In this document: in pieces, positions 12,380 through 40,848 of the stretch
Layout: every line of letters begins with the position of its first letter
Position numbering within the stretch: the first letter of the stretch is position 1
Assembly (NCBI RefSeq): GCF_019039035.1
Contig: NZ_JAHNZT010000047.1
Span: forward strand, 1-48,892
Length of the DNA stretch: 48,892 nucleotides
Direction: 5' to 3'
From: Citreicoccus inhibens
GTDB lineage: Bacteria > Myxococcota > Myxococcia > Myxococcales > Myxococcaceae
Made by a program: the position numbers and the translations under genes
Notes under the pieces: generated by a model
What the model was told of the DNA's origin: nothing
The model's database searches: none
What the model saw: the letters and a program-made list of their open reading frames with translations, nothing else

Positions 12380-12380
12380 G

Positions 12381-13019
12381 CTAGTCGCGCTCTTGAGCCT
12401 GCGCCGCGAGGCGGGCTCGCAGCGCGCCCACGAGCATCCCGATGGCGATGTCGTTGTTACCGCCGTGCGGGATGATGATGTCCGCGTGGTGCTTGGACGG
12501 CTCGACGAAGCCCATGTGCATGGGCCGCACGTGGCGCAGGTACTGGGCCACCACGTGGTCGAAGTCCCGGCCGCGGTCCTTGATGTCGCGCGTGAGGCGC
12601 CGGAGGATCCGCAGGTCGTCGTCCGCGTCCACGTAGATTTTCACGTCCATCTGGTCCCGCACTTCCTTCATGTGCAGGACGAGGATGCCCTCGATGAGGA
12701 TGATGTCGCCCGGATCCAACCGCTGGGTGTGCGGCTGACGCGAGGACGTGACGAAGTCGTAGACGGGCTTCTGCACCGCGCGGCCGGCCTTCAGCTCACG
12801 CAGATGACTGACGAGCAGGTCCGTGTCGAAGGCGTCGGGGTGATCGAAGTTCACCTCCCGCCGATCCGCCAGGGAGATGTCCTTGAGGTCCCGGTAGTAC
12901 GAGTCCTGATCGATGAAGGCGACCCGACAGTCCGCGAGTGCCTCGCGGACCTTGCGGGCGACCGTCGTCTTGCCGGACGCGGTACCACCCGCGATGCCAA
13001 CGACGAGAGGTGACGACAT
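12381..13019 (-). CDS. udk: Uridine kinase
   Basis: Phosphorylates uridine and cytidine in pyrimidine salvage. The 212-residue length is typical. The P-loop GIAGGTASGKTTVA is at residues 8-21. DQDSYYRDL follows at about 38-46 and NFDHPDAFDTDLL at about 57-69, the family's nucleoside-binding region. PVYDF is also present, and RLTRDIKDRGRD forms the lid. The start ATG has AGGTG eight bases upstream. The gene follows the MNIO-family gene on the same strand with a 63-bp gap, with no evident functional link. Confidence 0.95.
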   Translation of the reverse strand: MSSPLVVGIAGGTASGKTTVARKVREALADCRVAFIDQDSYYRDLKDISLADRREVNFDHPDAFDTDLLVSHLRELKAGRAVQKPVYDFVTSSRQPHTQRLDPGDIILIEGILVLHMKEVRDQMDVKIYVDADDDLRILRRLTRDIKDRGRDFDHVVAQYLRHVRPMHMGFVEPSKHHADIIIPHGGNNDIAIGMLVGALRARLAAQAQERD

Positions 13020-13082
13020 GCCGGCCGCACCTATCCCACCCGACGGGCTGGCGCAAGACTCCGTCGAAAATCGGACACGTTC

Positions 13083-14732: not shown

Positions 14733-14892
14733 GTCCGTTCCCTATAGACCCAGCCGCTCCGGCCCGCAGCATCTGGATGTTCGCCGCGCAACGATGACCG
14801 GCGAGCCGAGCGGGCCCCCGACGCCCCGACGGGAACCTTTCTCGCGCCCCCTTGTCGAATGGCTCCGCGAACCCAGACAGGAGCAAGCGTCG

Positions 14893-16713
14893 ATGAAGCG
14901 AGCCGCAATGGCTGGCAGCGGTGGAGTCGTGTGCGCACTCGTCGCGACGAGCACGCTAGTGGTCCTCGCCTGCGCTCAGCGCAATCCGCCGGAGCCCGCC
15001 CCGCCCCCTGCCCCGGCGCAAGTCGCCGCGAAGCAGGCACCCGGGCCTGCGGCCATGAGCGCAGAGAAGCAGGCGCCTGCGCCCGTGGACAGGCATGAAG
15101 CCGCCGCACCTTCCGCGGCGCCCGCTGGGGCGGAGATCACGGAGGCGGTGATCCGGCGTGCCTTCATCGCGAATCGGGCGGCGGGCACTGGCGAGCCCCT
15201 GGAGGGCCGGGGCACGGGCTTGGGGATGATGGGCAAAGGCGCTGGCGGCGCGGGACTCGGACTCCGTTCGCAGGGCTTCGGCAACATCCATGGGGTGCTC
15301 GGGGGCAAGCGGAACACCGAAGACCACGATCCGCGCGAGCCATCAGCGGGCCCCCCTGGCGCGTCACCTTCGCGGATCCACGGCTTCGTCGAGACGACGA
15401 GCGATGCCTTGTCCACCTTCGCGGTGGATGTCGACACCGCGTCATACACGCACGCCCGACGGCAGGTGAACGAAGGCACCCTGCCCGCTCCGGAGACGGT
15501 CCGCGTGGAGGAGTTCCTCAACTACTTCCACTATCGCTACGCCGCCCCCACCGAGGATGCGCTCACGGTCCAGTTGGACGCGGCGCCGTCGCCCTTCACG
15601 CCCGGCCGCCACCTGCTGCGCGTTGGCGTTCAAGGTCGCCGCTTGAGCGTGGCCGAGCGGAAGCCCGCGCACCTGACGTTCCTCGTGGACGTGTCGGGCT
15701 CCATGTCCTCACCGGATCGCCTGCCGCTGGCGAAGCGCGCGCTGCGCCTCTTGGTGGATCAACTGCGCGACGGAGACACCGTGGCGCTCGTCACCTATGC
15801 GGGCGCCGTGCGGCTCGTGCTGCCGCCCACGGGCCTGGAGCACAAGGCGACCCTTCATGCCGCCATCGAAGACCTGACCGCGGGGGGCGCCACCGCAATG
15901 GCCTCGGGCATCGAGCTGGCCTATCAGCAGGCGAGCCGCACGCTGGACGGACACTCCCTCTCGCGCGTCATCATCTTGTCCGACGGCGACGCCAACGTGG
16001 GGCCCACGCATTACGAGGCGCTGCTGGCGCTCATCCAGCGGCACGTCAAGGAAGGCGTCACGCTGACGACCGTGGGCTTTGGCCTGGGCAATTACCAGGA
16101 TGCGACGATGGAGCAGCTCGCGGACCGCGGGAACGGGAACCACTACTACGTGGACTCGCTCATGGCCGCGCGCCGCATCTTCCAGGAGCAGTTGGGCTCC
16201 ACGCTGGAGGTCATCGCCCAGGACGTGAAGCTCCAGGTCGAGTTCGATCCCAAGCAGGTCGAGCGCTACCGACTCGTGGGCTACGAGAACCGAGATATCG
16301 CGGACCGAGACTTCCGCAACGACCGCGTGGACGCGGGAGAGATGGGCGCGGGCCACACGGTCACCGCGCTGTATGAACTCGTCCTGCGACCGGGCGCGGG
16401 AGCGGGCCTCGCCACGGTGCGGGTGCGCGCGAAGCGACCGCGCGGAGAGACGGCGACGGAGCGCGCGTATGCCTTCGATGCCACGGCCCTGGCCCCTCGC
16501 TTCAGCAACGCCAGTCAGGACTTCCGCTTCGCCGCGGCCGTCATGGGCGCGGCGGAGCTGCTCCGTCGCAGTCCCCATGCCGAGCGATGGAGCCTGGAGA
16601 ATGTCCTGTCCATCGCGCGCGCGGCGACCCCACCCGGAGACGTTGAGCGCGAGGAGTTCATCACCTGGATGGAGCGCGCCCGTCCGCTGCTGCACGGAGT
16701 GGCCGCGCGTTGA
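14893..16713 (+). CDS. VWA-domain lipoprotein (YfbK family)
   Basis: 606 residues. A signal sequence ending in VVLACAQ suggests a lipoprotein. Next come a Pro/Ala-rich stretch, a Gly-rich stretch (about 110-135), a von Willebrand N-terminal region with FAVDVDTASYTHARRQ, then a VWA domain with the MIDAS motif DVSGSMSS, a threonine in GGATAM and the aspartate in LSDGDANVG. A DUF3520-like C-terminal domain (GYENRDIADRDF onward) completes the YfbK architecture. VWA domains bind metal and mediate protein contacts; the partner is unknown. I chose the ATG at 14893 (AGGAG about nine bases upstream) rather than 14674, which would overlap the divergent MNIO gene. The shared divergent region is 160 bp. 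Confidence 0.88.
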   Translation: MKRAAMAGSGGVVCALVATSTLVVLACAQRNPPEPAPPPAPAQVAAKQAPGPAAMSAEKQAPAPVDRHEAAAPSAAPAGAEITEAVIRRAFIANRAAGTGEPLEGRGTGLGMMGKGAGGAGLGLRSQGFGNIHGVLGGKRNTEDHDPREPSAGPPGASPSRIHGFVETTSDALSTFAVDVDTASYTHARRQVNEGTLPAPETVRVEEFLNYFHYRYAAPTEDALTVQLDAAPSPFTPGRHLLRVGVQGRRLSVAERKPAHLTFLVDVSGSMSSPDRLPLAKRALRLLVDQLRDGDTVALVTYAGAVRLVLPPTGLEHKATLHAAIEDLTAGGATAMASGIELAYQQASRTLDGHSLSRVIILSDGDANVGPTHYEALLALIQRHVKEGVTLTTVGFGLGNYQDATMEQLADRGNGNHYYVDSLMAARRIFQEQLGSTLEVIAQDVKLQVEFDPKQVERYRLVGYENRDIADRDFRNDRVDAGEMGAGHTVTALYELVLRPGAGAGLATVRVRAKRPRGETATERAYAFDATALAPRFSNASQDFRFAAAVMGAAELLRRSPHAERWSLENVLSIARAATPPGDVEREEFITWMERARPLLHGVAAR

Positions 16714-16785
16714 CGGGTCGCGGTGTGGACTCCGTCTCGGCACCTTGCGGACAATGCCTGTTCCCTCCTGATGGAGCGACCGCCC

Positions 16786-17589
16786 ATGTCCGCCTCTGAG
16801 ATTGACGAGTCCCATGCGCAGTTCCGCGGTGCCTGGAGATTGTTCGCGTTGGGCAGCCCCCAAGGCGAGGTCGTGGAGCGGCGCGAGGTGTTCATCGCCG
16901 CGGGCCATGTGACGTGGCCCCTGATGAACGCCGCGTTCCTCAACGCGCCGGTGGAGCGAGAGCAGGACCTGGCACGTTCCATCGAATCCGCCGCGCGGTA
17001 CTTCGCGCAGGGCCGGCATGGATGGTCCTTCGCCTACAGCGAGGACTGGTTGTCGCCCGCCTTGCGCCCCCGTGCCGCCTCGCTTCTTCAGGCGCATGGC
17101 CTGTCGCCGGGCATGAGCATCATGGGGATGGCCGCGGAGCGACTACAGACCCCCGTGCGTCCGCCGCCACCGCTGGACCTGCTGCGGGTGAAAGACACGT
17201 GGGGCTACAACGCCGTCGCCGACATCAACGCCACTTGCTACGACGTGCCGCGCGAGGTGGGGCGCGAGGCCCTGGCGTCTCCGGACATCTACGGCCCTGC
17301 CTGTCGGGCCCTCGTCGGATGCCTGGAGGACAAGCCCGTGACGACCACGTCGGTGCTGAAGGTGGATGACATCGCGTATGTCGCGCTCGTGGCCACGCTC
17401 CCCGAGCACCGTCGCACGGGCGCCGCGGAGTCCGTCATGCGGCAGGCGCTGATGGCCGCGAAACAGGACTGGGGCCTGGAGCGCGCGGTGCTCCACGCGA
17501 CGGCCGCCGGGCGCCCCGTCTACCAGCGCATGGGCTTCCACGACGTCACCCCGTTCCAGTTGTTCTTCAGCCCGCCGCCCGGCGGGTAG
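16786..17589 (+). CDS. GNAT-family acetyltransferase
   Basis: 267 residues, cytoplasmic. The C-terminal third has the GNAT acetyl-CoA-binding pattern: VALVATLPEHRRTGAAESVM (motif A, with R/Q-x-x-G-x-A variation), a helix, and the closing strand LHATAAGRPVYQRMGF. The N-terminal 100 residues form a second, degenerate half, as in tandem GNAT proteins. The substrate cannot be predicted. I chose the ATG at 16786, which has GGAG nine bases upstream, over the ATG at 16771 or the frame start at 16723. Confidence 0.82.
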   Translation: MSASEIDESHAQFRGAWRLFALGSPQGEVVERREVFIAAGHVTWPLMNAAFLNAPVEREQDLARSIESAARYFAQGRHGWSFAYSEDWLSPALRPRAASLLQAHGLSPGMSIMGMAAERLQTPVRPPPPLDLLRVKDTWGYNAVADINATCYDVPREVGREALASPDIYGPACRALVGCLEDKPVTTTSVLKVDDIAYVALVATLPEHRRTGAAESVMRQALMAAKQDWGLERAVLHATAAGRPVYQRMGFHDVTPFQLFFSPPPGG

Positions 17590-17650
17590 GTGGCGCGGGC
17601 CACGCGCGGGCTGGACGTCGGGGCGTCCTCCGGAAACAATCCGCGGCCCC

Positions 17651-20053
17651 ATGCAGCCCCCTCGCAGGACTGACCCTTCCGCTGCCCCCTCGTCACATTG
17701 GGCGATGGGGCTCGCGGTGGTGGGCGGCGCCATCGGATTGACGTGCCTGTTCTTCTATCGCGCCGTGTTCACGCGAGACGTGTTCACCGCGCGGGACATG
17801 TTGCTCGTCTATGCCCCCGTGCGCCGCTACTGGGCCGAGCGGGTGTCGCGAGGTGAGTTCCCCGAGTGGTATCCGTTCGACGGGCTCGGGCAGTCCTTCC
17901 CCGGCATGGTGCTGTCCGGAGTGCTCCACCCGTCGCAGCTCCTCGGGTGGGTGTTCTCCACGGGCGACGCCATGAAGCTCACGGTGCTGGCCTGCTTCCC
18001 GCTCGCGCTCCTTGGCACGTACCTGCTGCTGCGCGAAGCGCGTGCGCCAAGGACTGGCGCCGGGATGGGCGCGGCGATCTTCGCGTTCAGCGGCTATCTG
18101 GTCTGCATCACCAACAACCTGGGATACCTCCTGGCCGGGGCCACGCTGCCGCTGACGCTGTGGGCCGCGCTGCGCTTCATCCGAGCAGGAGGCCCGGGCC
18201 GCGCGGCGGTCGCGGCAGCACTGCTCGCCAGTGTGCTGCTGGCGGGCGACACCTGGACGTATGCGATCGCGAATGCGTTCGTGCTGCTGCTCGCAATCCT
18301 GGGTGATGACACCACTCCGGGCTCCATCCGCGCGCGCAGAAGCGTGACGCTGGTCCTTCTGGGCGCGCTGCTCGCCGCACCGCAGCTGCTCGCGGGGAGC
18401 GCGGTGCTCGCGGCGGGCGCACCGGGAGCCAGCTCGCTCGAAGACGCGCAGCGATGGTCGCTCGACCCGTGGCGACTTCTCGAGCTGGGGTTGGGTCCCT
18501 TCCTCGCCAATCCCGCGCAGGAGCGCGGCGTGCCCGAGGAGTTCGTGAAGGGGCTGCTGCGCACGGGAGGGTTCTCCAGCCTCTGGGTGGACTCGGTGTT
18601 CCTCGGCGTTCCCGCGCTCGTGCTCGCACTCACTGGACTGCGGTCACTGCCTCGACGAGCCTGGCCCTTCATCGCGGCGGGCTTCGCGCTGCTCCTCCTC
18701 GCGATGGGTTCGGCGCTGCCGTTCTATCGGCTGCTCTACACCGCGCTGCCGCTGTGGCGCCCGTTCCGCTACCCCGAGAAGCTGATGGTCCACGTGTCGC
18801 TCGGCGTGGCCCTCCTGGCGGGGCTCGGCTGGAAGGCGGTGGTGGAGAGTCCCGCGCGCGCGCGTCGAGCCATGTGGACCAGCAGCGTCCTCGCCGTCCT
18901 CTGCGCGCTCATGGCGGGCGCGGAACAATGGGCAGGGGCCTGGACCGCGCTCTGCGTGCGCACGCGCTGGCCCACCGTCTCCCCCGAGCAGCTCACCCAC
19001 GCCTCCAGCGCGTTCTCGAACGCGGCCTGGGTGGCCTGCGGAATCGCTGGGGTCACCGCGCTGCTCGTGCGCGGCCTCGCGGAGTCGCGGGTCCATCAAC
19101 TGGCGCTGGTGCTGGTGCAGGGCGCCTCGGCCTTCGTCGCGAATGAGCCGCTGTACATTGTCGGTCCGCCCTCGCTGTTGGAGACGCCTCCCGCGTTCGC
19201 GGAGGTGTTGCGCGCGATTCCCACGAAGGACGGTGCACCCCGTCACCGCGTGGCCTCGCGTGTGGATCGCCTCAACCTTCCCCGCTTCGACGCGTTCGAG
19301 TTCCAAGACAGCGTCGCGCTGATGTCGCGCGCATCGTTCACGCCCAACACGCCGGCGCTGTGGGGCATCGAGAGCGCGGAGAGCTATCTGCCGGCGGCGA
19401 GCGCACGCCTTCAACACCTGGAGGAGGACCTCCCCGAGACGTTCACCACGCTCCTGCCGATCTACGGCGTGGGCTACAGCGTCTACGCGCCGGAGCAATA
19501 CCAGCGCCTCGCGACCAGGCCCGGCCCCATCGTCGCCCAGGATGAAGCCTTCGGGCTCGAACTGGTCGCGCATCCCACCGCGCTCCCCCGCGTCGCGCTC
19601 ATGCGTCCTCGCTGCGTGCCCGACGCCGACACGGCCTTGGGCCTCCTCATGGATCCGCGCTTCCCCATCGCCACTGAAGCGGCGGTCGAATGCGGTGCCT
19701 TGCAGCCACCCCACACGGAGGGCGCGGTGGGAACGGTCCGCGTCGAGCGCTTCGACCCCGAGCACATCGCGCTCGACGTCTCCGCCACCACCGACGGGGT
19801 CGTGCTCATCAACGACGCGTGGCAGCGCGGCTGGGAGGCGCAACAGGATGGAGTGCCCGTTCCCATCCTGCCGGCCAACATCGCCGTGCGAGCGATCCCC
19901 GTCTCAGCGGGCGCGCACCACGTCGTCCTGAGCTATCGCGCCCCCGGCCTGCGCGTGGGGCTTGGGGTGTCACTCGTGACGCTGCTGTCCTTGCTCATGT
20001 GGATGGGTTGGCTTCGGGTGCGCCCGCACCTGCGACATCGCGTGCGCGCCTGA
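17651..20053 (+). CDS. YfhO-like polytopic membrane protein (GT-C fold)
   Basis: 800 residues with about a dozen hydrophobic helices spread between residues 18 and 510 and a final one at about 770-790. An early periplasmic loop has DVFTARDMLLVYAPVRRYWAERVSRGEFPEWYPFDGLGQ, matching the acidic loop-1 pattern of GT-C glycosyltransferases and the YfhO family. The region 560-765 is soluble and beta-rich. YfhO-type proteins are thought to transfer sugars from lipid carriers to cell-surface polymers. The specific acceptor is unknown. The ATG at 17651 follows the GNAT gene by 61 bp on the same strand. Confidence 0.75.
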   Translation: MQPPRRTDPSAAPSSHWAMGLAVVGGAIGLTCLFFYRAVFTRDVFTARDMLLVYAPVRRYWAERVSRGEFPEWYPFDGLGQSFPGMVLSGVLHPSQLLGWVFSTGDAMKLTVLACFPLALLGTYLLLREARAPRTGAGMGAAIFAFSGYLVCITNNLGYLLAGATLPLTLWAALRFIRAGGPGRAAVAAALLASVLLAGDTWTYAIANAFVLLLAILGDDTTPGSIRARRSVTLVLLGALLAAPQLLAGSAVLAAGAPGASSLEDAQRWSLDPWRLLELGLGPFLANPAQERGVPEEFVKGLLRTGGFSSLWVDSVFLGVPALVLALTGLRSLPRRAWPFIAAGFALLLLAMGSALPFYRLLYTALPLWRPFRYPEKLMVHVSLGVALLAGLGWKAVVESPARARRAMWTSSVLAVLCALMAGAEQWAGAWTALCVRTRWPTVSPEQLTHASSAFSNAAWVACGIAGVTALLVRGLAESRVHQLALVLVQGASAFVANEPLYIVGPPSLLETPPAFAEVLRAIPTKDGAPRHRVASRVDRLNLPRFDAFEFQDSVALMSRASFTPNTPALWGIESAESYLPAASARLQHLEEDLPETFTTLLPIYGVGYSVYAPEQYQRLATRPGPIVAQDEAFGLELVAHPTALPRVALMRPRCVPDADTALGLLMDPRFPIATEAAVECGALQPPHTEGAVGTVRVERFDPEHIALDVSATTDGVVLINDAWQRGWEAQQDGVPVPILPANIAVRAIPVSAGAHHVVLSYRAPGLRVGLGVSLVTLLSLLMWMGWLRVRPHLRHRVRA

Positions 20054-20195
20054 GCGAACGCGGCGACTCAAACGTCCACTCGTCAACGCGTTCATGGCGC
20101 ATGCACTCCAGGCCACGTGAGGTGTTGGTCACCCGATGCCTAGCTTGACATCCGCGGAGCCTCCGTTCCGCCGGTTAGACCTCGGGAGCTTCACC

Positions 20196-21470
20196 ATGCG
20201 CACCTCTTCCGTTCGTCGCGCCACCGCACGCGACGCGCTCGTACCCCTGTCATCACTCACCCTGGGACTGTGCATCCTGCTCGGCGCCAGCACCGCGCGG
20301 GCCGCGCCCACGCCGCTGGAGGACAACCGTCGCATCACCCGGGGCTACATCGAGCTTGCGTACGAGGTCGGCGCGATTCTGGATCCCACGCTGCAACCCG
20401 GTGGCAGCAGCGCGGTGCGCCCCAACTGGTACACGTTCGCCCCCAACGCGTCGCAGACCGGTGGCATGGGCATGTACGGCACGGCGGTGGCCACGAAGCT
20501 GATCAACGCGCTGCGCGGCAGGCCCATCCTCACGGTGCTCGAAGCACTCGGCCGCGTGGACCTCGATGACGTCCTGAAGGCCAACGCCGAGCAGCGCGCC
20601 GCGGAGTTCCTCACCGCGGGCCTCCCGTTGGACGTGTCCACGGTGTTCGCGGTGCTGACGTCCTCACTCAACGCCAAGGCCCTCCTGGACCCGCGCACGC
20701 TCGCGACGACGACCGGGCGCTTCGTGTCGCTGTATTGGAGCGCCCCGGGCATCCTGCCGCTCGACAAGGCCGAGGCGGTGGTGCGCACGCTGGAGCGCAC
20801 GCTGCACGAGGGCAACCTCGCCATCTACTCGGACATCGGCGGCGCCGGGCGCGCGTACCTGACCTGGCGGAGCGGCGCGGGCGTCGTCACCCCTGGGCGC
20901 GTCCTGACGGAGTTCGCCCTCCCGGAGGCGGTGCCCGCCGAAGCGCGCGTGGCCTATGACTTCGCGCTCGCGCACGCGAATGACACGCCGCGCCCCAACC
21001 AGTTCGACGCGCTGCTCCCGGGCATGCACTGGAAGAGCCTGCTCGTGGCCGCGTTCGCGCTCTACGAGGAGTCGCGGCTGGCCTCGTCCCCGGAGCGCCG
21101 CGACGCGCTCATCGCCATGGGCAACAACTACGTGGCCTGGCGAGAGCAGCACGACATGGCGCAGCCCGTGTTCAACCCCTCGGGCGCCCCGGACGAGGTG
21201 TCCCGCCCCGCGCTCCTCCAGGCGCTGACGCCGCTGCTACAGACGGACTTCGGCAAGGTGCACTGGACGTACGCGGACTACGCCAACACCCAGCCGGACC
21301 GCGACGGCAACCCCTTCACGTCGAAGCCCACCGAGTACAACTGGGCCGTGTTCCTCGACCGGTGGCACGGCATCCTCTACGCGTTCGACCTGGCGTATTC
21401 CCGACCGCGTGACACGTGGGTCATGCCCACGCCCCTGGAGGATCCGCTGACCCCGTTCATCGGGACCTGA
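20196..21470 (+). CDS. Secreted protein of unknown function
   Basis: 424 residues with a clear Sec signal peptide (Arg-rich start, hydrophobic LTLGLCILLGA, cleavage after ARA). The mature part is largely helical with no repeats or cysteine pattern. It contains several Trp/Tyr-rich motifs (VRPNWYTFAPNASQTGGMGMYG, DFALAHANDTPRPNQFDALLPG, WAVFLDRWHGILYAFDLAYSRP). I do not recognise a family. The start ATG at 20196 has GGGAG seven bases upstream; the frame extends to 20136 but without a good site. A TTGACA element lies upstream near 20143 but has no convincing -10. Confidence 0.75.
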   Translation: MRTSSVRRATARDALVPLSSLTLGLCILLGASTARAAPTPLEDNRRITRGYIELAYEVGAILDPTLQPGGSSAVRPNWYTFAPNASQTGGMGMYGTAVATKLINALRGRPILTVLEALGRVDLDDVLKANAEQRAAEFLTAGLPLDVSTVFAVLTSSLNAKALLDPRTLATTTGRFVSLYWSAPGILPLDKAEAVVRTLERTLHEGNLAIYSDIGGAGRAYLTWRSGAGVVTPGRVLTEFALPEAVPAEARVAYDFALAHANDTPRPNQFDALLPGMHWKSLLVAAFALYEESRLASSPERRDALIAMGNNYVAWREQHDMAQPVFNPSGAPDEVSRPALLQALTPLLQTDFGKVHWTYADYANTQPDRDGNPFTSKPTEYNWAVFLDRWHGILYAFDLAYSRPRDTWVMPTPLEDPLTPFIGT

Positions 21471-21624
21471 GCGGCCCGCGCCCGGGCGGCACAGGCGGCG
21501 ACAGAGCGTGCGCATGGCGCGAGGAGACTTGTCCGCGCCACCAGCCATCCGGCCTTCCGGGCCGTCGCGGCAGATCGATGGCGGTCTGCTTGACGACATG
21601 GGGGACGTGGGAGAGCGTTCTGTC

Positions 21625-23220
21625 ATGAGTCCCGCCTCGGGTCGCACGACGAAGCCCGGCTCCCGCGCCTCGGGTGACGCTTCTTCCGCGACGAACCCCG
21701 CCGCCTGGCGGGCCTTGGAAGCCACGATGCCGGCGCCGGCCGACGAGGCCAGCATGTCGGCTGACACACGGCTTCAGCTCCTGCGCGAGATGATGGGCGA
21801 GGCCTTCGTGGTCCTCGACGCCCACGGCCGCCTGGGCGAGCTGAACCACCGCGCCGCCACGCTGCTGGGGCTGCATCCCGATGGCAGCGTGGGGCAGGAG
21901 CCCTGGGTCGCGCAGCCCGCCCTCGCGGGCACCCTGCTGCACGAGCGATTGATGAGCGTGCTCGCCACGCGGGAGCCCACTCGCTTCTTGTGCGAGCTGC
22001 CGCCGGGCACGTGGTTGGAGGTGAGCGTGCGTTCCGTGGGCGGAGAGACGTGGGTGCTCGCCAACGACATCACCCGCCGCCAGCAGGCCGAGTCCGAGGC
22101 CACGCGCAACGACGAGCGGCTGCGGCAGCTCGGCGACCGCTTCCAGGTCGCGCTCGAGTCCGCGGAGATGGCGGTCTGGGAGACGAACCTCGCCACCGGA
22201 CAGGTGTTTCGGTCCGAGGGGCATGATCGCCTCTACGGCTTCCCCCAGCCGCTCGAGGAATGGACGCACGAGAAGTTCCTGGCGTCACTGCACCCGGACG
22301 ACCGCGCCGAGGTCGAGGCCCAGGTGACGGGCATCTTCGACAGCGACGTGGACTCCTATTCGTCCACCTTTCGCACCCACTGGCCGGACGGCTCGTGGCA
22401 CTGGCTCAACAGTCGCGCCAAGGTGATTCGCGACGCAACCGGCCGGGTGATGGTGGTGCGAGGCGCGGTGCTGGACATCACCGCGCTCAAGGAGACGGAG
22501 GCCGCGCTCCAGGACGCCGTGCGCACGCGCGACGACTTCCTCTCCCTGGCGAGTCATGAACTGCGCACGCCGCTCACCTCGCTGCGCCTGCAGGTGGACA
22601 TGCTGCGGCGACAGTCCACCGGGAGCCCTGGCGAGCCGATCGCGTCTCCCAAGGTGGTGGCGAAGCTGGAGGCGGCGGAGCGACAACTGCGGCGGCTCGG
22701 TGCGCTGGTGGACAACCTGCTGGATGTCAGCCGCATGCGCACGGGCAAGCTCGACTTCCACTTCGCGGACGGAGACCTGGCCGCCGTGGTGTCCGACCTG
22801 GCCGCGCGGTTCGCCGACGAGTCGCGACAGGCCGGCGTGGTGCTGGAGGCGAACATCGAGTCCCCCGCCCCAGGACATTTTGATCGCCTACGACTGGAGC
22901 AGGTGGTCAACAACCTGATGACCAACGCCTTCCGGCACGGCAAGGGAAGCCCCGTGCACGTGTCACTCACCTCCTGCGACAACACGCTGCGGTTGATGGT
23001 GCGCGACCACGGCCCGGGCGTTCCCCTCTCGGAGCGCGAGCGCGTCTTCCAGCGCTTCGCCCAGGGTCGGGACTCGCAGCGCGCGGGCGGCCTGGGCCTC
23101 GGGCTCTACATCGTCCGGCAGATCGTCGAAGCGCACGGTGGGCGCGTCTGGGTCGAAGACGCACCCGGTGGGGGCGCGGCGTTCATGGTGGAGCTGCCTC
23201 CTGGCGCCGCGCGAGAATGA
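21625..23220 (+). CDS. PAS-PAS sensor histidine kinase, orphan
   Basis: 531 residues, no membrane segments, so cytoplasmic. The first PAS-like domain is at about 50-150 and the second (PAS_3 type, with the PAC signature HWPDGSWHWLNSRAKVIRDATGRV) at about 170-290. The HisKA dimerisation domain has the phospho-acceptor in FLSLASHELRTPLTSL (H311). The HATPase domain shows the N box NNLMTNAFRHG, the G1 box DHGPGVP, the F box VFQRFAQG and the G2 box GLGLGLYIV. There is no receiver domain and no response regulator next door, as is frequent in myxobacteria. I prefer the ATG at 21625 (GGGAGAG nine bases upstream) to the frame start at 21508. Confidence 0.92.
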   Translation: MSPASGRTTKPGSRASGDASSATNPAAWRALEATMPAPADEASMSADTRLQLLREMMGEAFVVLDAHGRLGELNHRAATLLGLHPDGSVGQEPWVAQPALAGTLLHERLMSVLATREPTRFLCELPPGTWLEVSVRSVGGETWVLANDITRRQQAESEATRNDERLRQLGDRFQVALESAEMAVWETNLATGQVFRSEGHDRLYGFPQPLEEWTHEKFLASLHPDDRAEVEAQVTGIFDSDVDSYSSTFRTHWPDGSWHWLNSRAKVIRDATGRVMVVRGAVLDITALKETEAALQDAVRTRDDFLSLASHELRTPLTSLRLQVDMLRRQSTGSPGEPIASPKVVAKLEAAERQLRRLGALVDNLLDVSRMRTGKLDFHFADGDLAAVVSDLAARFADESRQAGVVLEANIESPAPGHFDRLRLEQVVNNLMTNAFRHGKGSPVHVSLTSCDNTLRLMVRDHGPGVPLSERERVFQRFAQGRDSQRAGGLGLGLYIVRQIVEAHGGRVWVEDAPGGGAAFMVELPPGAARE

Positions 23221-23335
23221 TTTGGCGCGCGGATGGAAACACGCGGCGCGCGTTGAGTGCATTCTCTCTCCACGCGTGACGAGGGGCCGCCGCCCCGCTT
23301 CGTCCGTGTCCTGTGATTCAAGTGGGGGGTATCCG

Positions 23336-23602
23336 ATGCCGTGGCTCGAGACCATTGTCATGTCCGCGCCAGAGTCCCGTCCCGCGCGAGCGAAACCTGT
23401 TCGAGACGAGGGCCGCCACCTGCGCGACTCGCTGCTGGACTACCTCACGAAGAACGAGCTGCTCGACGGAGTTCGCTGGATGAGTGAACCCGGACAGTTG
23501 CCGCTCGTGACGATGCACTGCACGCCGCAGGCGCAGGAGCGTCTGCGCAAGGCCGGGCAGTTCACGGTGGGCACGGGCATGCCGCTCGACCTGCACGGCT
23601 GA
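23336..23602 (+). CDS. Small hypothetical protein, 88 aa
   Basis: Starts MPWLETIVMSAPES, preceded by a GGGGGG run six bases upstream of the ATG. No signal peptide or membrane segment. It contains a predicted amphipathic helix (HLRDSLLDYLTKNELLDGV) and a beta-like C-terminal half with VTMHCTPQAQERLRKAGQ. I recognise no family. The gene lies 115 bp after the histidine kinase on the same strand, and its stop is six bases from the convergent PARG gene. An internal ATG at 23360 is an alternative start. Confidence 0.6.
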   Translation: MPWLETIVMSAPESRPARAKPVRDEGRHLRDSLLDYLTKNELLDGVRWMSEPGQLPLVTMHCTPQAQERLRKAGQFTVGTGMPLDLHG

Positions 23603-23608
23603 AGCGAC

Positions 23609-24421
23609 TCAGCCGAACCGCTCGCGGAAGGCTCGCTGGTTGGGCCCTCCCGAGCCCCGCTCATACACGGCGAAGACGACGCGCTCGAAGCGCCCCGGCA
23701 GCGCGCGCAGCCCCTGAGCGAAGGCCTCGGCCACGTCGCGCGGGTTGTTGCGGAACACCCCACAGCCCCACGCCCCCAGCACGAGCGTGCGGTGCCCTTG
23801 GTGCGCCGCGACCTGAAGCACCTTGAGCGCGCGAGCGAACAGCACCTCGCGCAGCCTCGGCCCCACGCCCGCGTCCGCGCGCAGCGCCTGTCCCGCATTG
23901 GGCGCGGGCGCCGTCATGAGCGATACGCCGAAGGGCCGCTCCAGCAGCTCCAGCGCTTCGTTGCGGAAGAACGGCACGTCGGGTGAGTAGATGACGTGGT
24001 CGGTGTACAGCGGCGTGCCCGCCGCGCGGTTCGCGTCGTAGTACTCGGGCTGCGTGACGAGGCACGCATACAGGGCCGAGCAGCGCGCCAGGTCCTCTTC
24101 CTGAGCCTTCGCCCCGCCGAGGAATCCACCGCCCGGGTTGCGCGCGGACGCGAAGTTGAGCGCGAGGACTCGCGCCCCCTCCATCTCGACCAAACGTCGC
24201 GCGGCCTCACCCGTCTTCTCGGGCGTCACCTCGATGCGCATCCCGCCGCCGGGCGCGACGGGCAGCGCGAGGGACTCGAAGTCACCAGGCCGATACAGCC
24301 GCGTTCCCTGAACGGCGTGAGAGACGGCGTCGCGAATGGACACCTCCTGGCCAGACAGCGCCACGTAGGTGCCCCGCCTGGTGATGCGAACCGTCTCTTC
24401 GCCGATGTCCTCGAGTCCCAT
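23609..24421 (-). CDS. Bacterial poly(ADP-ribose) glycohydrolase-type macrodomain protein (TIGR02452 family)
   Basis: 270 residues. The PARG signature GGG-x7-QEE is intact (NFASARNPGGGFLGGAKAQEE), preceded by the conserved LNFASA. The end has LVLGAWGCGVFRNNP, the second ADP-ribose-binding loop. Bacterial PARGs hydrolyse ADP-ribose linkages in the cytoplasm. The gene starts 15 bp after the lipoprotein gene at 24437 on the same strand, so they may be co-transcribed. No ADP-ribosyltransferase is visible nearby. The ATG has GGAGG close upstream (three-base spacing, unusually short). Confidence 0.87.
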   Translation of the reverse strand: MGLEDIGEETVRITRRGTYVALSGQEVSIRDAVSHAVQGTRLYRPGDFESLALPVAPGGGMRIEVTPEKTGEAARRLVEMEGARVLALNFASARNPGGGFLGGAKAQEEDLARCSALYACLVTQPEYYDANRAAGTPLYTDHVIYSPDVPFFRNEALELLERPFGVSLMTAPAPNAGQALRADAGVGPRLREVLFARALKVLQVAAHQGHRTLVLGAWGCGVFRNNPRDVAEAFAQGLRALPGRFERVVFAVYERGSGGPNQRAFRERFG

Positions 24422-35559: not shown

Positions 35560-36375
35560 TTGAGAAACATCCTGGCAATCATTGTCACCGTGGCCACGCT
35601 GGGTGCGGTACCCGCGCTGGCGGGTGCGCCGGTCGAGGCAGGCAAGGTGTATGTCGGCTCGGAGGGCGCCGCCGTCACGGTGGTCCCGCTCACCCCGCGC
35701 GAGGCCAAGAAGTACCTCGTGCGCGTGGAGGGCACGGGCTCGGAGTTCGACGGGCTGGTGCTGCCTGCCACCGTCAACGACTGGAGCAGCCGGTCGTCGG
35801 TGCGGATGAACTACGTCACGCAGTACCACGGCCGTGACTACGCGGTCGTCGTCGTGTCCGGCTCCAGCACCGAGCTGTACGTGCCGGGCCGCCACAGCAA
35901 CGGCATCAGCGTCCAGTACGACGCGAAGCGCACCGAGTCGCTCAAGTCCGACGACGTCCACTCGCAGTTCCAGAAGCTGGAGAAGGCCGGCACGCTCGCC
36001 AAGCTGATGGCGTTCGATCGCAAGGCGGAGATGACGCGCCACGATGGCGAGTACGCCGAGAAGCTCAAGGCGATGAACACGTCCTGCGGCACGCAGGTGG
36101 CGGGCACGCTCGACTGGACCACGGTGTCCGACGAGCTCATCAAGGAGTACAGCATCTCCGGCTTCTGTGAGGCGCCGCTGGCCTCGCTGCGCGCCCTCTG
36201 CGACATCTCCGAGGAGGCTCGGCGCACCGTGAAGGCGAAGGTGAAGCAGGTCGACTGCCGGTTCGGCGCCAGCGTGGATCCGAAGCTCGCGGCGGATCAC
36301 GTCATCTGGACGACGGCCAAGGACGCCTCGAACCAGGAAGAGTTCGCCACCCGCTTCTTCAAGCAGAACCTGTGA
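35560..36375 (+). CDS. Secreted protein of unknown function
   Basis: 271 residues starting (TTG) RNILAIIVTVATLGAVPALAGA, a Sec signal peptide. The mature domain opens with a beta-rich part (about 25-115) containing VYVGSEGAAVTVVPL and RDYAVVVVSGSSTELYVPG, followed by a charged helical part with two Cys-containing segments (NTSCGTQ, ISGFCEAPLASLRALCDIS, VDCRFG) that could form disulfides. The TTG is preceded by AAGGAG six bases upstream, an excellent site. It lies 69 bp after the kinase and 14 bp before another secreted-protein gene, forming a likely kinase-linked cluster. I do not recognise the family. Confidence 0.75.
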   Translation: MRNILAIIVTVATLGAVPALAGAPVEAGKVYVGSEGAAVTVVPLTPREAKKYLVRVEGTGSEFDGLVLPATVNDWSSRSSVRMNYVTQYHGRDYAVVVVSGSSTELYVPGRHSNGISVQYDAKRTESLKSDDVHSQFQKLEKAGTLAKLMAFDRKAEMTRHDGEYAEKLKAMNTSCGTQVAGTLDWTTVSDELIKEYSISGFCEAPLASLRALCDISEEARRTVKAKVKQVDCRFGASVDPKLAADHVIWTTAKDASNQEEFATRFFKQNL

Positions 36376-36389
36376 GCCGGAGCCACCCC

Positions 36390-37211
36390 ATGACCTTCAA
36401 GCGATTCCTCACCGCGGCGGCCCTCCTCGTCACCGGCACCTCCCAGGCCGTGGAGCCCCCCTGGGGCAAGGAAGAGAACCTGGGGCAGCGCATGGCCCTG
36501 GAGGCCACGTCCCTCTGCACCGACGGCAAGGGCCACTACGTCGCCATCGCCCCCATGTCCGAGGAGGGCAAGTACGACTTCCAGCTGTACTACGGCGACG
36601 GCAAGCAGTTCGTCGAGGTGGCCCCGCCCGAGGGCTACACCTCCGCGACGACCTTCCTGGAGCCGCGCTTCTTCAACAAGGGCGCCAACCCCAACTTCCG
36701 CGGCATGGACATGCGGGTGTACTCGTCCGTGGATCTGAAGGCGAAGGAGCAGAAGTGCTCCCTGCGCTGTGGCGACCGCGAGGTGCCCCTGAAGTGGGTG
36801 GCCGGGGAGCAGGCGCGTGAGCTGCTGCGCAAGGCGGCCTTCGCGCCGAACCCGCAGAAGTACGTGCCCTACGCGCTGCTGCGCGACACGCAGGGCAACT
36901 ACTACTTCGTGGACCGGGGCTTCCTGCCCTCCGAGGCCAAGAGCTTCCGCGTCTTCATCGGCCCCCGAGGGGACTTGAAGCCGCAGAAGATGACCAACGT
37001 GGTGTCCGACTCCGAAGGAGAGATCTTCTCCACGAAGAAGGGCGAGCTGCGGCTCGTGTTGGACAAGCAGAAGTCGCCCGTGTGGATCGCCAGCTCGAAG
37101 AAGACGCTGGAGCTGCGCGTGGTCCCCGTCGAGGAGAACCTCCCGCTCGTCTACAACGAGCTGGGTGTCTACACGGGGGTGCGCCTGGGCACGCCCTGCG
37201 ACGACCAGTAG
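36390..37211 (+). CDS. Secreted protein of unknown function
   Basis: 273 residues starting MTFKRFLTAAALLVTGTSQAVEPP, a signal peptide. The mature protein is rich in Tyr, Lys and Glu and beta-strand-like, with one Cys pair (KCSLRCGDRE) and a segment PFLP-like around NYYFVDRGFLPSEAKSF. No family recognised. The ATG at 36390 has GGAG seven bases upstream; a GTG at 36372 would overlap the previous gene but give a poor signal. Probably co-transcribed with 35560-36375. It is convergent with the KASIII-like gene, 12 bp apart. Confidence 0.75.
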   Translation: MTFKRFLTAAALLVTGTSQAVEPPWGKEENLGQRMALEATSLCTDGKGHYVAIAPMSEEGKYDFQLYYGDGKQFVEVAPPEGYTSATTFLEPRFFNKGANPNFRGMDMRVYSSVDLKAKEQKCSLRCGDREVPLKWVAGEQARELLRKAAFAPNPQKYVPYALLRDTQGNYYFVDRGFLPSEAKSFRVFIGPRGDLKPQKMTNVVSDSEGEIFSTKKGELRLVLDKQKSPVWIASSKKTLELRVVPVEENLPLVYNELGVYTGVRLGTPCDDQ

Positions 37212-37223
37212 TCCGGTCTTCGC

Positions 37224-38186
37224 CTAGACGCGCACCAGCAACGCGAGCTGGTGCGCGCCTATCCCCAGCCCCACCATCACCAACCAGCGTGTGCGCAGCT
37301 CCCGCTGGAAGCGCGCCAGCGTCACGGGGATGGAGGCAATCACCATGTTGCCGTAGTCCTCGTAGGTATCCAGGTACTCGCGCGGGCGAATCTCCTGGGC
37401 CCAGTGGTCCATCAGCTTGCGCGTGGCCTGGTGCGCGATGAGCGTCACGTCCTCGCCCCGGAGCCCGTGCCTGGCGAGCAGCCGCGCCACCAGCCGCGGC
37501 GGGCCGTCCATCCCTGACTTCAAGAAGGCCTGGATGCCCGCCACCGGGTCGATGCCGTAGGTGGGCTGCTCCAGCCCGTTCTCGGCGCGGCGGCGCATCG
37601 TCATGGCGCCGTACTCGTTGCTGAAGGTGTCCGCCGCGTAGTCCACCAGGACGAGCCGCTCGCCCGGCCCGACCACGGCCGCGCCCGCCGCATCGCCAAT
37701 GCCAATGGCGTGGCCCTGGCTGTAGTCCACGTTGCGCGTCCACCCCGCCCCGGCCACCACCAGCGCGCGCTGCAAGGCCCCCGCGCGAATGCCCTCCCAG
37801 GCCAGCACCACGCCCATGAGGAAGTTGCCGAAGTCCGCCTGCACCGGGACGACCATCACGTCCTGGCCGAGCCCCAGGTCGCGGTGCACCTCGTACATCG
37901 CGTTGGGCGTGACGAAGTCGGAGACGGACACGTAGCCATACAGCCGCTGCACGTCCTGCGTGCCCAAGCCGGCGTCTCGGAGGGCCGCGCGCCCTGCCTC
38001 GGCGGTGAGGGCACTCAGCGACTCGCCGGGCGCGAGCACGCGCCGCTCGCGGTTGCCGTAGAAGAGCGCCTGCTCACCCGCGCCCGCGGCCTTGCGGAGG
38101 GGCTCGAAAACGGGATCGTCGTTGAGGCGAACCTGCGCGGGCAGCGCGGCTCCCGTCCCAATCAGCGCGATGGAGGGCGCGTCCAC
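37224..38186 (-). CDS. KASIII/FabH-like protein lacking the catalytic cysteine
   Basis: 320 residues with the thiolase fold layout of 3-oxoacyl-ACP synthase III: IGTGAALPAQ at the N-terminus, the HQATRKLMD histidine motif and the YGNMVIASIP asparagine motif near the end. At the position of the FabH cysteine (AACAGF) the sequence is QADFGNF, so the nucleophile is missing (confirmed in the codons). The histidine and asparagine are kept. It may act as an acyltransferase without a cysteine, as some KASIII-like enzymes of secondary metabolism do, or be a scaffold. The GTG start lies 13 bp after the upstream TPP-enzyme stop, so the two form an operon. Transcription order is TPP enzyme, then this gene. 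Confidence 0.8.
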   Translation of the reverse strand: MDAPSIALIGTGAALPAQVRLNDDPVFEPLRKAAGAGEQALFYGNRERRVLAPGESLSALTAEAGRAALRDAGLGTQDVQRLYGYVSVSDFVTPNAMYEVHRDLGLGQDVMVVPVQADFGNFLMGVVLAWEGIRAGALQRALVVAGAGWTRNVDYSQGHAIGIGDAAGAAVVGPGERLVLVDYAADTFSNEYGAMTMRRRAENGLEQPTYGIDPVAGIQAFLKSGMDGPPRLVARLLARHGLRGEDVTLIAHQATRKLMDHWAQEIRPREYLDTYEDYGNMVIASIPVTLARFQRELRTRWLVMVGLGIGAHQLALLVRV

Positions 38187-38199
38187 GGGCGCGCCTCGC

Positions 38200-40119
38200 C
38201 TAGCGTCCGTCGGCGGCGACGGCGGCGAAGCGCTCTCCGAACGGAGGAACCTCGCGGTAGTCGACGTGCGCGATGATGACCTGCGGCTGGCGATCCGCGT
38301 CCGCGCGGCGCAGCACCTCGGGCATCAGCGCGCTGAGCTGGCCGGGGCCCTTCACCGTGTGCGCCCGAGCGCCGAGCGACATGGAGAAGGCCTCCAGGTC
38401 CGGGTTGCCCAGACCGTAGAACTCGTCCTCCAGCGGGTAGCTGCTGTCCTGGGCGCGCTCGCCGTGGTTCACCATGCCCAGGAAGTTGTCGTTGAGCACC
38501 AACGTCACGGTGCCCACCCGGTGGCGGGCCGCGGTCAGAAGCTCCGTGCCGTTCATCAGGAACGCGCCGTCGCCGGTGAACGCCACCGCCGCGCGCTCCG
38601 GCCGGCCCACCTTGCCGCCGATGACGGCGCCGCAGGACCAGCCCATGGACGACAGGCCGCAGGGGAAGAAGATGCGCGTGGGCGCGGACACGTGCAGGCA
38701 GTGCGTCGCCCAGCCCGTGCAGTTGCCCATGTCGATGTACAGGTCCATGTCCGGGCGCAGCTGCGCGTCCAGCTCGGCCATGAGGTGCTGCGGCTTCACC
38801 GAGCCCTCGGACTGGGGCGCGCGCGGCACCAGGGGCTGATCCACCAGCGCCATCACCTGCGCCCACCGCTCGCGCACGCGCGCGCCGCTGGAGGGGCCAA
38901 TCATCTGCCCCAGCTCGCTCAAACCCGCCATCACCGAGCCCACGTCCGCGACGATGGGCAGGCGAACCGGGAGGAACTGGCCGATGTTCGCCGCGTTGAC
39001 GTCCACCTGGATGACGTTGCGCACGGCCTGGAAGTGCTTGTGGAAGCTGCGCGTGGCCCACTCGCCCAACCGGCTGCCGAGCACCACCAACACATCCACG
39101 CCCTCGCGCAGGTACGCCTCGGCGCGCTTGCTGCCACACAGGCCCAGCACGCCCAGCGACAGCGGATCGCGCTCGGAGAACAGGCCCTTGCCGCGGAGGC
39201 TGGTTGCCACCGGGATGCCGTGCTGGGTGACGAAGGCGCTGAAGGCCTCGCCCTGCGTGGCCATGGCCTCACGCGCCCCCGAGCCCAGGAAGATGAGCGG
39301 GCGGCGCGCGGTGCGCAGCATGGAGAAGGCCGCGCGCAGGTCCTCGAAGGGCGCCGCGGGCGGGCGGGCACGGAAGGTGCCGCGCGTGGTGGGCAGCGTG
39401 ACGCGCTCGATGCGCTGGCGCGCGATGTTCGAGGGGATGCTCAGGTGCGCGGCGCCGCCCGGAAGTCCCTGCGCGGTGCGCAGCGCGCGCGCCAGCAGCC
39501 GAGGGAAGCTCTGCGCATCCACGATGCCCGTGGACGCGGCGCACGAGTTGCGGAACACCTCCACCGTGTTCACGCCGTGCGTGCCATTGCTCTCCTGGAT
39601 GGCGGACATGCCGAAGCGATCCGTCGCCACCTGGCCGGAGATGGCCAGCAAGGGGACCTGATCCAGGTTCGCGGACGCCACGCCCGTCAGCGCGTTGGTG
39701 GCGCCCGGCCCCGCCGTCACCATACACACGCCCAGCTTGCCCGTGGCGCGCGCGTAGCCGTCCGCCATGAACGCCGCGCCCCCCTCGTGCGACGCGATGA
39801 TGAAGCGGATGGACGGGTGCTTGCGCATCCCCTGCTGGAACGGCGCGATGTTGCCGCCCGGAACGCCGAACACCGCGTCCACTTCCTCGCTCTCGAGGTG
39901 CGCCAGCACGCAGTCCGCGACCGTGAGGTCCTCCACCGTCTGATAGCCACGCGCGTGCTGCTCGCCGTACATCGGCAGCGGCTCGGGCGGATGCATGGGA
40001 CGCGCTTCACTCACCGCCGGAACCGCCACATCACCTCGCAGGACTTCCATCGCTCCGTCGTGAGACATGCTCGGCGCGGAGGTCGGGGCGTGGAATTCAA
40101 TGAGCGAGCGAGTGGGCAT
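38200..40119 (-). CDS. Acetolactate-synthase-like TPP-dependent enzyme
   Basis: 639 residues with the three-domain TPP-enzyme layout. The catalytic glutamate is in SHEGGAAFMADGYARATG, the FAD/central domain includes RGKGLFSERDPLSLGVLG, and the TPP/Mg motif is GDGAFLMNGTELLTAARHRVGTVTLVLNDN. Classical acetolactate synthase condenses two pyruvates or pyruvate with 2-oxobutyrate; the substrate here is unknown. About 60 residues precede the usual start and are Pro/Ala-rich. I chose the ATG at 40119 (GGAG ten bases upstream); a GTG at 40191 has no site. No small regulatory subunit (ilvN) or other branched-chain gene is nearby, so a specialised carboligase role seems more likely than isoleucine/valine synthesis. 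Confidence 0.85.
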   Translation of the reverse strand: MPTRSLIEFHAPTSAPSMSHDGAMEVLRGDVAVPAVSEARPMHPPEPLPMYGEQHARGYQTVEDLTVADCVLAHLESEEVDAVFGVPGGNIAPFQQGMRKHPSIRFIIASHEGGAAFMADGYARATGKLGVCMVTAGPGATNALTGVASANLDQVPLLAISGQVATDRFGMSAIQESNGTHGVNTVEVFRNSCAASTGIVDAQSFPRLLARALRTAQGLPGGAAHLSIPSNIARQRIERVTLPTTRGTFRARPPAAPFEDLRAAFSMLRTARRPLIFLGSGAREAMATQGEAFSAFVTQHGIPVATSLRGKGLFSERDPLSLGVLGLCGSKRAEAYLREGVDVLVVLGSRLGEWATRSFHKHFQAVRNVIQVDVNAANIGQFLPVRLPIVADVGSVMAGLSELGQMIGPSSGARVRERWAQVMALVDQPLVPRAPQSEGSVKPQHLMAELDAQLRPDMDLYIDMGNCTGWATHCLHVSAPTRIFFPCGLSSMGWSCGAVIGGKVGRPERAAVAFTGDGAFLMNGTELLTAARHRVGTVTLVLNDNFLGMVNHGERAQDSSYPLEDEFYGLGNPDLEAFSMSLGARAHTVKGPGQLSALMPEVLRRADADRQPQVIIAHVDYREVPPFGERFAAVAADGR

Positions 40120-40334
40120 CGGCCTGCGTCTCCGTTCATCCAGCTCTGGCGATTCACTCCCTGTGCTGTCCAGGGGTCGGGAGTGCGTCACCCGGGTCGG
40201 GGAAACCCGGTTGTTTGAATCGGCGTTGCGTGGATACTGGAAAGTTTCAGTCGCTTAGTAGCCGAACAGCCCCGGATTGGGAAGTAAAAAACTTGGAAAT
40301 CCGATTGGAGCCGCAGAGCCGAGAAGTACTGGCG

Positions 40335-40364
40335 TTGATCCCATCCCATCCCGCTGGGTTAGCA
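40335..40364 (+). promoter_or_regulatory. Putative sigma-70-like promoter of the STAS-like gene
   Basis: TTGATC (40335-40340) and TTAGCA (40359-40364) with an 18-bp spacer; the predicted start near 40372 would give a leader of about 60 nt. Confidence 0.35.
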
Positions 40365-40373
40365 TTCGAGACA

Positions 40374-40395
40374 CTCGTACGCCCTCGAGTACGAG
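40374..40395 (+). promoter_or_regulatory. Perfect 7-bp inverted repeat, candidate operator
   Basis: CTCGTAC (40374-40380) and GTACGAG (40389-40395) separated by eight bases, located just downstream of the predicted start point and 39 bp upstream of the ATG. The geometry fits a repressor site or a leader hairpin. Confidence 0.45.
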
Positions 40396-40434
40396 CATTC
40401 AGGCGTCGAGGGTCACATCACGTGGGGGTTGGAG

Positions 40435-40848
40435 ATGGCTGAAAATCTGCGAACGGAGTACGGGTTTCGAGCAAACGCGACGGGCTACATCACCCCGGCC
40501 GAGGCGAACGCCTGGTTCGATGATCTTCGCGCCAAGGTGGCGATCAAGAAGGGGCGTGCATTCGGGCTGATGGTGGACATCCGCGGTCAGAAGGCGAATC
40601 CGCCGGAGACCCAGGAGATCATCAAGCAGGCCATGGGGTGGTTGCGGCAGAACGGCATGGTCCGCTCGACGGTGGTGCTCGACAGCGCCGTGGCTCGCCT
40701 GATGATGGTGCGCATGGCGAAGCAGAGCGGCGTCTACCAGTGGGAGCGCTACCTCGACGCGTCCAAGGACTCGGACTGGGAGACCAAGGCGATTGATTGG
40801 ATCGTCCATGGCCACGAGCCCAGCAAGGAAGAGGACGCCGCGGCGTAG
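40435..40848 (+). CDS. SpoIIAA/STAS-like small protein
   Basis: 137 residues, cytoplasmic. The fold looks like the SpoIIAA-like/STAS alpha-beta domain: an N-terminal strand (LRTEYGFRANATGYIT), helix (PAEANAWFDDLRAKV), strand (AFGLMVDIRG), helix (QEIIKQAMGWLRQNGM), strand (RSTVVLDSAV), helix (ARLMMVRMAKQSG) and a final helix. Such proteins can bind lipids or act as anti-sigma-type switches, but I see no phospho-serine motif and assign no role. The ATG at 40435 follows GTGGGGG seven bases upstream. It is monocistronic: a strong terminator follows. Confidence 0.68.
   Translation: MAENLRTEYGFRANATGYITPAEANAWFDDLRAKVAIKKGRAFGLMVDIRGQKANPPETQEIIKQAMGWLRQNGMVRSTVVLDSAVARLMMVRMAKQSGVYQWERYLDASKDSDWETKAIDWIVHGHEPSKEEDAAA

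Follow-up and report, generated by a model that had tools for sequence, protein, structure and literature searches.

The stretch of DNA analysed here, referred to as the window, comprises 48,892 nucleotides of Citreicoccus inhibens (contig NZ_JAHNZT010000047.1) and contains on its minus strand a two-gene unit coding for a thiamine pyrophosphate (TPP)-dependent carboligase and a protein of the beta-ketoacyl-ACP synthase III (KASIII) fold. The first gene (38200..40119) specifies a 639 amino acid protein resembling synthases of alpha-hydroxy-beta-keto acids (HKA); its ATG start fits the N-terminus M-x-x-x-S-x-x-E common to relatives of two other genera. After a spacing of 13 bp it is followed by the KASIII-like gene (37224..38186), which begins with GTG and encodes 320 amino acids. 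The former product possesses TPP_enzyme N, M and C domains and the latter ACP_syn_III (PF08545) and ACP_syn_III_C (PF08541) domains, all above the Pfam cut-offs. A preliminary description of this DNA, made from the sequence, had reported the same two-gene operon, a TPP carboligase with its core motifs, and a KASIII-like partner with QADFGNF at the Cys segment and the His and Asn retained; our analysis agrees on each of these. In seven genome pairs the dN/dS values are 0.06-0.32 for the KASIII-like gene and 0.08-0.57 for the TPP gene, some TPP rows carrying up to 20 upstream codons which raise their ratio (highest 0.57). A decaying pseudogene was rejected, since dN/dS was below 1 in 7/7 pairs for both genes and the His and Asn are invariant.

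In KASIII enzymes the active-site Cys accepts the acyl group, and His and Asn serve decarboxylation. QADFGNF aligns with the catalytic Cys segment, F119 (TTC codon, 37830..37832, minus strand) falling in the Cys column, and alignment with FabH identifies H252 (37431..37433) and N280 (37347..37349), on the same strand, as the retained catalytic His and Asn. Phe occupies the Cys site in 28/28 orthologues from the order and in both homologues found on plasmids of Rhizobium jaguaris and Flammeovirga. The His and Asn are present in all 25 full-length orthologues (three of the 28 are cut short) and again in both plasmid homologues, and 147 of the 320 positions are invariant within the clade. The window protein has no cysteine at all; 14 of the 25 full-length orthologues are likewise Cys-free throughout, and no Cys column spans the clade. 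The usual acyl-enzyme is therefore impossible for this protein, because Phe replaces the Cys and no other Cys is conserved through the clade.

The AlphaFold2 model (pLDDT 88.7) was compared with the PDB in one look-up, as was that of the TPP enzyme; PqsD was the top entry among the matches listed (Z 38.8, root mean square deviation [rmsd] 2.5, 306 residues aligned). The CoA clamp of FabH, which we take to be Trp32, Arg36 and Arg151 in E. coli numbering, is absent from 12/12 clade rows and both plasmid homologues when these are aligned with the genome's own FabH. It is mostly absent from the compared Cys-bearing, TPP-linked KASIII proteins too, so that its loss does not discriminate between the readings weighed below. 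Among the aligned TPP-linked KASIII genes there are three active-site patterns. The first combines Cys and His, with the third residue being Asn in locus L095, Ser in L093, L094, L096 and L097, and Gly in L092 and L100; the second has Cys and Asn without His (L102 and L127, the latter from Calothrix); the third, Phe with His and Asn, is that of the Cys-free clade and retains the decarboxylating half only. CerJ, which has Val in place of its first His, reportedly no longer carries out condensation (PMC4425429).

Among proteins of solved structure, the closest to the TPP enzyme by sequence is BbmA (PDB 8x3x, 8xod; 323.6 bits), and its model (pLDDT 83.7) superimposes on BbmA with Z 51.8, rmsd 2.3, 532 residues aligned and 35% identity, the next non-BbmA entry having Z 48.9. 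E112 (39784..39786, minus strand), which presumably is the catalytic Glu of TPP enzymes, is invariant in a 34-row alignment. G553 (38461..38463, minus strand), the equivalent of BbmA G484, occupies the position in the C-terminal domain that we take to be the specificity Trp of acetolactate synthase. This site is Gly in 23 and Ala in five of the 28 orthologues, Gly in BbmA and both plasmid TPP homologues, and Gly in eight of nine other KASIII-linked TPP enzymes compared (L092, L093, L094, L095, L097, L100, L102 and L127), the ninth (L096) having Cys; the Streptomyces IlvB compared has Trp and the Rhodococcus one Leu. From this we infer that the smaller residue should admit a larger acceptor 2-oxoacid.

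The best NCBIfam names for the TPP enzyme are those of acetolactate synthase, but such models, among the best 25 of 55, all score far below their cut-offs (TIGR00118, 309.2 against 538.35; PRK08322, 314.8 against 509). The genome has three TPP_enzyme_N matches, namely the window gene, a pyruvate dehydrogenase of the PoxB type (above cut-off) and MenD, making the window gene its sole acetolactate synthase-like gene. A whole-genome profile search returned no match to ALS_ss_C (PF10369, ilvN) or KARI_C (PF01450, ilvC), profiles which recognised 13/14 and 14/14 controls, respectively; nor was any branched-chain gene seen by Pfam among the scanned window neighbours, in keeping with the earlier remark that no ilvN, ilvC or other such gene lies nearby. 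Because ilvN and ilvC have no match and the other TPP_enzyme_N genes are PoxB and MenD, the pair does not belong to branched-chain biosynthesis. A housekeeping acetolactate synthase was rejected on the absence of both genes together with the low family scores. The case foreseen earlier, of a sole acetolactate synthase with ilvN elsewhere, does not apply, since the genome is without ilvN.

Each protein of the pair was used to search 145 genomes of the order. The KASIII-like protein has orthologues (at least 67% identity; three cut by contig ends) in 28 of them, and those of the TPP enzyme (at least 59% identity; one divided between two contigs) come from exactly these 28, with the next-ranked matches dropping to 32% and 38%, respectively. 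For this complete overlap the nominal hypergeometric P is 1.5e-30, a descriptive value only because the genomes share ancestry. The 28 genomes are spread over five genera, and one genome (G075) of a pair-bearing genus has neither gene. The genes are adjacent, TPP first, in 21/28, with 4-14 bp between the TPP stop and the aligned KASIII start (20 measured); they are present but apart in six genomes of one genus and in the draft G121, which has them on separate contigs and next to other genes. Across 195 genomes of the phylum, a profile made from the KASIII-like clade hit 28 at E 1e-25 or better, and a short-peptide scan of named genomes, which detects close relatives only, gave six loci: four in Corallococcus, one in a Myxococcaceae draft and one in an Archangium draft. 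Conservation of the pair, which the preliminary description had suggested checking across myxobacteria, holds for part of the order and not for all myxobacteria.

Beyond the phylum, three of 72,556 plasmid records matched the KASIII-like protein at E 1e-5. In the Rhizobium jaguaris (39% identity) and Flammeovirga kamogawensis (31%) proteins Phe again takes the place of the Cys, His and Asn are present, and a TPP gene of the same type lies within 8 kb of each; the Paracoccus match keeps the Cys, and no TPP gene was found in the stretch examined. A second search with the Rhizobium protein again gave three records, the two already known and a Deinococcus KASIII aligned over 27% of the query. On the Rhizobium plasmid the TPP gene (11440-13287), a flavin amino-acid oxidase gene (13167-14996) and the KASIII gene (14965-15990) are consecutive on one strand, the overlaps depending on start-codon choice. 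In Flammeovirga the KASIII gene is immediately preceded by one flavin amine oxidase gene, and the TPP gene is immediately followed by another; the first of these is 36% identical to the Rhizobium oxidase, and the best NCBIfam match of both is VioA, below cut-off. These oxidases are a likely source of the 2-oxoacid. As a hidden third gene of the myxobacterial system a VioA-like oxidase was rejected: 15 of 96 genomes of the family match the Rhizobium oxidase, only six of them pair genomes, and the window's own genome has none. Large AAA-ATPase regulators adjoin the KASIII gene in both plasmids (15999-19952 in Rhizobium, 19000-24174 in Flammeovirga), one with a cyclase domain and one with kinase, GAF and SpoIIE domains; they are about 20% identical over the ATPase part.

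Trees were built from 22 KASIII rows and 30 TPP rows, with outgroup rows chosen by hand and several long branches. The two are congruent: in each, the proteins from Rhizobium and Flammeovirga cluster with those of the myxobacterial clade (KASIII clade 100/100; TPP 100/98), and the Cys-bearing KASIII genes included from elsewhere in the order, like their TPP partners, fall outside it. The tree program warns that joins between long rows may be false, including that of Rhizobium with Flammeovirga in the KASIII tree.

Upstream of the TPP gene lies a divergent intergenic region (40120..40434) containing an imperfect inverted repeat (40273-40303) and the block TTACTTC (minus strand, 40281-40287). 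The block is identical in 9/9 aligned regions, two from the window's genus and seven from a Corallococcus-type genus, and could belong to a promoter or operator. The divergent gene beyond it (40435..40848, plus strand) encodes 137 amino acids without a Pfam family; all 28 pair genomes, and G075 as well, contain a homologue, and it adjoins the TPP gene in 25/28 of the former, even where the KASIII gene sits elsewhere. Whether it is a member of the system is uncertain. On the other side, two plus-strand genes (35560-37211; 271 and 279 amino acids, no Pfam families) converge on the pair, next to which they are conserved in those Corallococcus-type loci which reach that far. A regulator or transporter as a constant neighbour of the pair was rejected, as none occurs throughout the whole clade: a TetR gene precedes the TPP gene in 3/3 genomes of one genus, and a gene for a POT-family transporter directly follows it in 6/6 genomes of the genus with separated genes (L085-L090) and lies one gene further away in G121. 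Neither an acyl-CoA ligase nor a carrier protein was recognised by Pfam among 25 flanking proteins. No CqsB2-type cyclase matched among the scanned window neighbours, three of which have no Pfam family, the genome itself not having been searched for CqsB2. The loci around the KASIII-like gene hold no second KASIII match; the genome encodes other KASIII-type genes elsewhere.

Other genomes of the order carry Cys-bearing TPP and KASIII pairs, and in six of seven loci with a Cys-His KASIII (L092, L093, L094, L096, L097 and L100, the exception being L095) a gene for a large protein directly follows the KASIII gene, the order in L092 being KASIII, kinase, TPP. These proteins match the double hybrid histidine kinase of L094, used as query, over about 1000 residues at 32-36% identity; kinase domains were confirmed by NCBIfam in L093 and by Pfam in L094, L096, L097 and L100, with L092 assigned by its match to L094 alone. 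Over the N-terminal 240-350 residues the six are related to one another and to the kinase of L101, a locus with a TPP gene and no KASIII match within the stretch. A simple hydropathy count, run on six kinases not including that of L092, gave no membrane helix in this region, and such a soluble-looking N-terminus suggests that the products of the Cys-bearing pairs may be sensed inside the cell. Perhaps these loci are biosynthesis-plus-sensor cassettes for an acyloin-type signal. The kinase N-terminus was not found at E 1e-6 in the window or in 29 loci that represent the Cys-free clade together with its two plasmid relatives. At the Asn column the KASIII proteins of the six kinase loci carry Ser or Gly, in contrast to the Cys-free clade. 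Two further units were seen. In L102 (7938-10741) a second TPP gene, related to ScyA and scoring under the curated cut-off, adjoins a KASIII-like gene with Cys kept and no His, in a genome (G047) which also carries the Cys-free pair. A Calothrix brevissima plasmid has a two-gene TPP and KASIII unit (L127, 4052-7065) whose KASIII protein retains the Cys but has Asn instead of His; the unit is flanked at one end by a WD-40 gene, and at the opposite end a second WD-40 gene follows after one intervening gene.

We propose that the window's pair forms a self-contained two-enzyme pathway of the acyloin type, a reading to which we would assign a probability of roughly 0.42. The sequences show the two genes, the Phe in place of Cys, the retained His and Asn, the co-occurrence and the agreement of the trees, whereas the substrates, the product and the decarboxylation step are inferred from them. 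The TPP enzyme would make an HKA, a beta-keto acid, which would be the substrate of the KASIII-like protein; the latter would bind it and decarboxylate it to an acyloin under stereochemical control, thus taking the role of acetolactate decarboxylase on another fold. Since the decarboxylating half (His252, Asn280) is kept and no acyl-enzyme can form, decarboxylation of the HKA would be its most likely activity. Points in favour of this are the presence of both genes in the same 28 genomes, the closeness of the TPP enzyme to BbmA and its Gly or Ala at the Trp site, the oxidase genes next to the plasmid pairs, the decarboxylation of the TPP product described for CqsB1 (PMC7466098), and the lack of an acyl-CoA ligase or carrier protein in the 25 flanking proteins. 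Of the two products suggested in the preliminary description, an acyloin or an acylated derivative of a 2-oxoacid, the former is the best reading and acylation stands only as its main rival. Several points weigh against our proposal. Such HKA are said to decarboxylate spontaneously, so that a dedicated decarboxylase is not strictly needed (PMC8777810), and the TPP-linked KASIII-like enzymes described transfer acyl groups (PMC4425429, PMC7466098, PMC8777810). The oxyanion-loop Gly, kept in every aligned clade row (a second Gly is Asp in both plasmid homologues), could allow an acyl transfer that bypasses the acyl-enzyme. The scan for acyl-activating genes covered a sample of 25 flanking proteins, the missing CoA clamp counts for neither side, and in myxobacteria the pair is not accompanied by the VioA-like oxidase.

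An acyltransferase working without an acyl-enzyme is the main rival, and in our estimate an unlikely one. With His252 as general base, the TPP product would receive an acyl group directly from a CoA or carrier thioester, at its hydroxyl or enediolate, and so become an acylated acyloin. The related XclB/XclC, CybF and CqsB1 acylate (PMC4425429, PMC8777810, PMC7466098), and the His and first oxyanion-loop Gly are kept; on the other hand a bulky Phe occupies the acyl-group position, no acyl-activating gene appeared in the flanking sample, and the Trp/Arg/Arg clamp is gone, though mostly so in the Cys-bearing relatives as well. That CybE/CybF-type pairs are proposed as butenolide makers in other myxobacteria (PMC8777810) suggests a furanolide-type synthase, in which another nucleophile would support a CybF-like cascade that joins the TPP product with an acyl donor into a butenolide. 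We regard this as improbable: the mechanism described for CybF uses a nucleophilic residue (PMC8777810), the usual one being Phe here, and the Cys-bearing KASIII genes of the order that were included, like their TPP partners, lie outside the clade in both trees, CybE and CybF themselves not being included.

The NCBIfam names invite the view that the TPP enzyme carries out ordinary acetolactate or acetoin formation and that the KASIII-like gene is unrelated; with the sub-threshold scores, the lack of ilvN and ilvC, the loss of the specificity Trp and the strict co-occurrence of the two genes, this is the least probable of the readings. PqsB, the Cys-less partner of PqsC in PqsBC, offers a precedent for an inactive subunit, and PqsBC entries are among the fold matches. 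A partner of this kind would require a Cys-bearing KASIII encoded elsewhere, and the genome does have other KASIII-type genes; the invariance of His, Asn and nearly half of the protein within the clade, and the lack of a second KASIII match in the surrounding loci, make it about as improbable as the butenolide route.

More widely, the acyloin proposal could be extended, doubtfully, to the whole Cys-free branch as a KASIII-fold decarboxylase which would have co-evolved with an HKA synthase in Myxococcota, Pseudomonadota and Bacteroidota, constituting a two-gene route to chiral acyloins. Given the sensor kinases beside the Cys-bearing pairs in related genomes, the acyloin products may be signals. 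KASIII enzymes depend on one cysteine, and a branch which has lost it, keeps the His and Asn and tracks one type of TPP carboligase across three phyla would show the chemistry of this fold without an acyl-enzyme. The pair is small enough to be rebuilt in E. coli. Phe at the Cys site next to a TPP enzyme of the Gly/Ala type would also be a genome-mining mark for acyloin pathways, whose genes otherwise resemble 'acetolactate synthase' and 'FabH'.

Pairs of this general kind are known, contrary to the preliminary remark that no described pathway with exactly this pair was known, since CybE/CybF, CqsB3/CqsB1 and NzsH/NzsJ are all described. XclA, as we understand it, is the TPP enzyme of the xenocyloin pathway, an acyloin pathway which shares KASIII-like enzymes with the window pair; XclB and XclC, which acylate, are named among condensation-like, ester-forming enzymes (PMC4425429). 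CybE and CybF, the TPP carboligase and KASIII-like enzyme of cyanobacterin biosynthesis, have co-localised homologues in Plesiocystis and related genes in Enhygromyxa, and such pairs are proposed for the myxobacterial enhygrolides, which are butenolides (PMC8777810). They share with the window pair the 2-oxoacids as (here presumed) substrates and the position of the TPP gene beside the KASIII-like gene (adjacent in 21/28), but the mechanism described for CybF employs an acyl donor and a nucleophilic residue of the active site, whereas the window protein, compared by description only, has Phe at the Cys site. For the carbazoles, CqsB3/CqsB1 and NzsH/NzsJ are described, and Sorangium is mentioned among the organisms with homologous clusters; in the condensation by the TPP-linked CqsB1 the product of the TPP enzyme loses its carboxyl group. 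These systems appear to differ in using an acyl-ACP donor and the cyclase CqsB2, and NzsJ homologues are said to hold the catalytic residues (PMC7466098). In the text consulted on the cyanobacterin, carbazole and xenocyloin enzymes, no member lacking the Cys is reported. BbmA, a 'ThDP-dependent HKA synthase' by the title of its PDB entry, is closest to the window TPP enzyme in sequence and fold and shares the Gly at the Trp site, the latter protein having in addition an N-terminal extension of about 60 residues; no publication on BbmA was among the literature matches listed for its name, and there was none for 'HKA synthase'. FabH and PqsD have the same fold, His and Asn as the window protein and differ by their catalytic Cys, FabH also by its CoA clamp. 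No description of a Cys-free KASIII working with a TPP enzyme was found in the literature searched, most subscription journals being outside our reach. The pairing of TPP and KASIII-like enzymes is already described, and what is new, as far as could be searched, is an old, Cys-free branch of KASIII.

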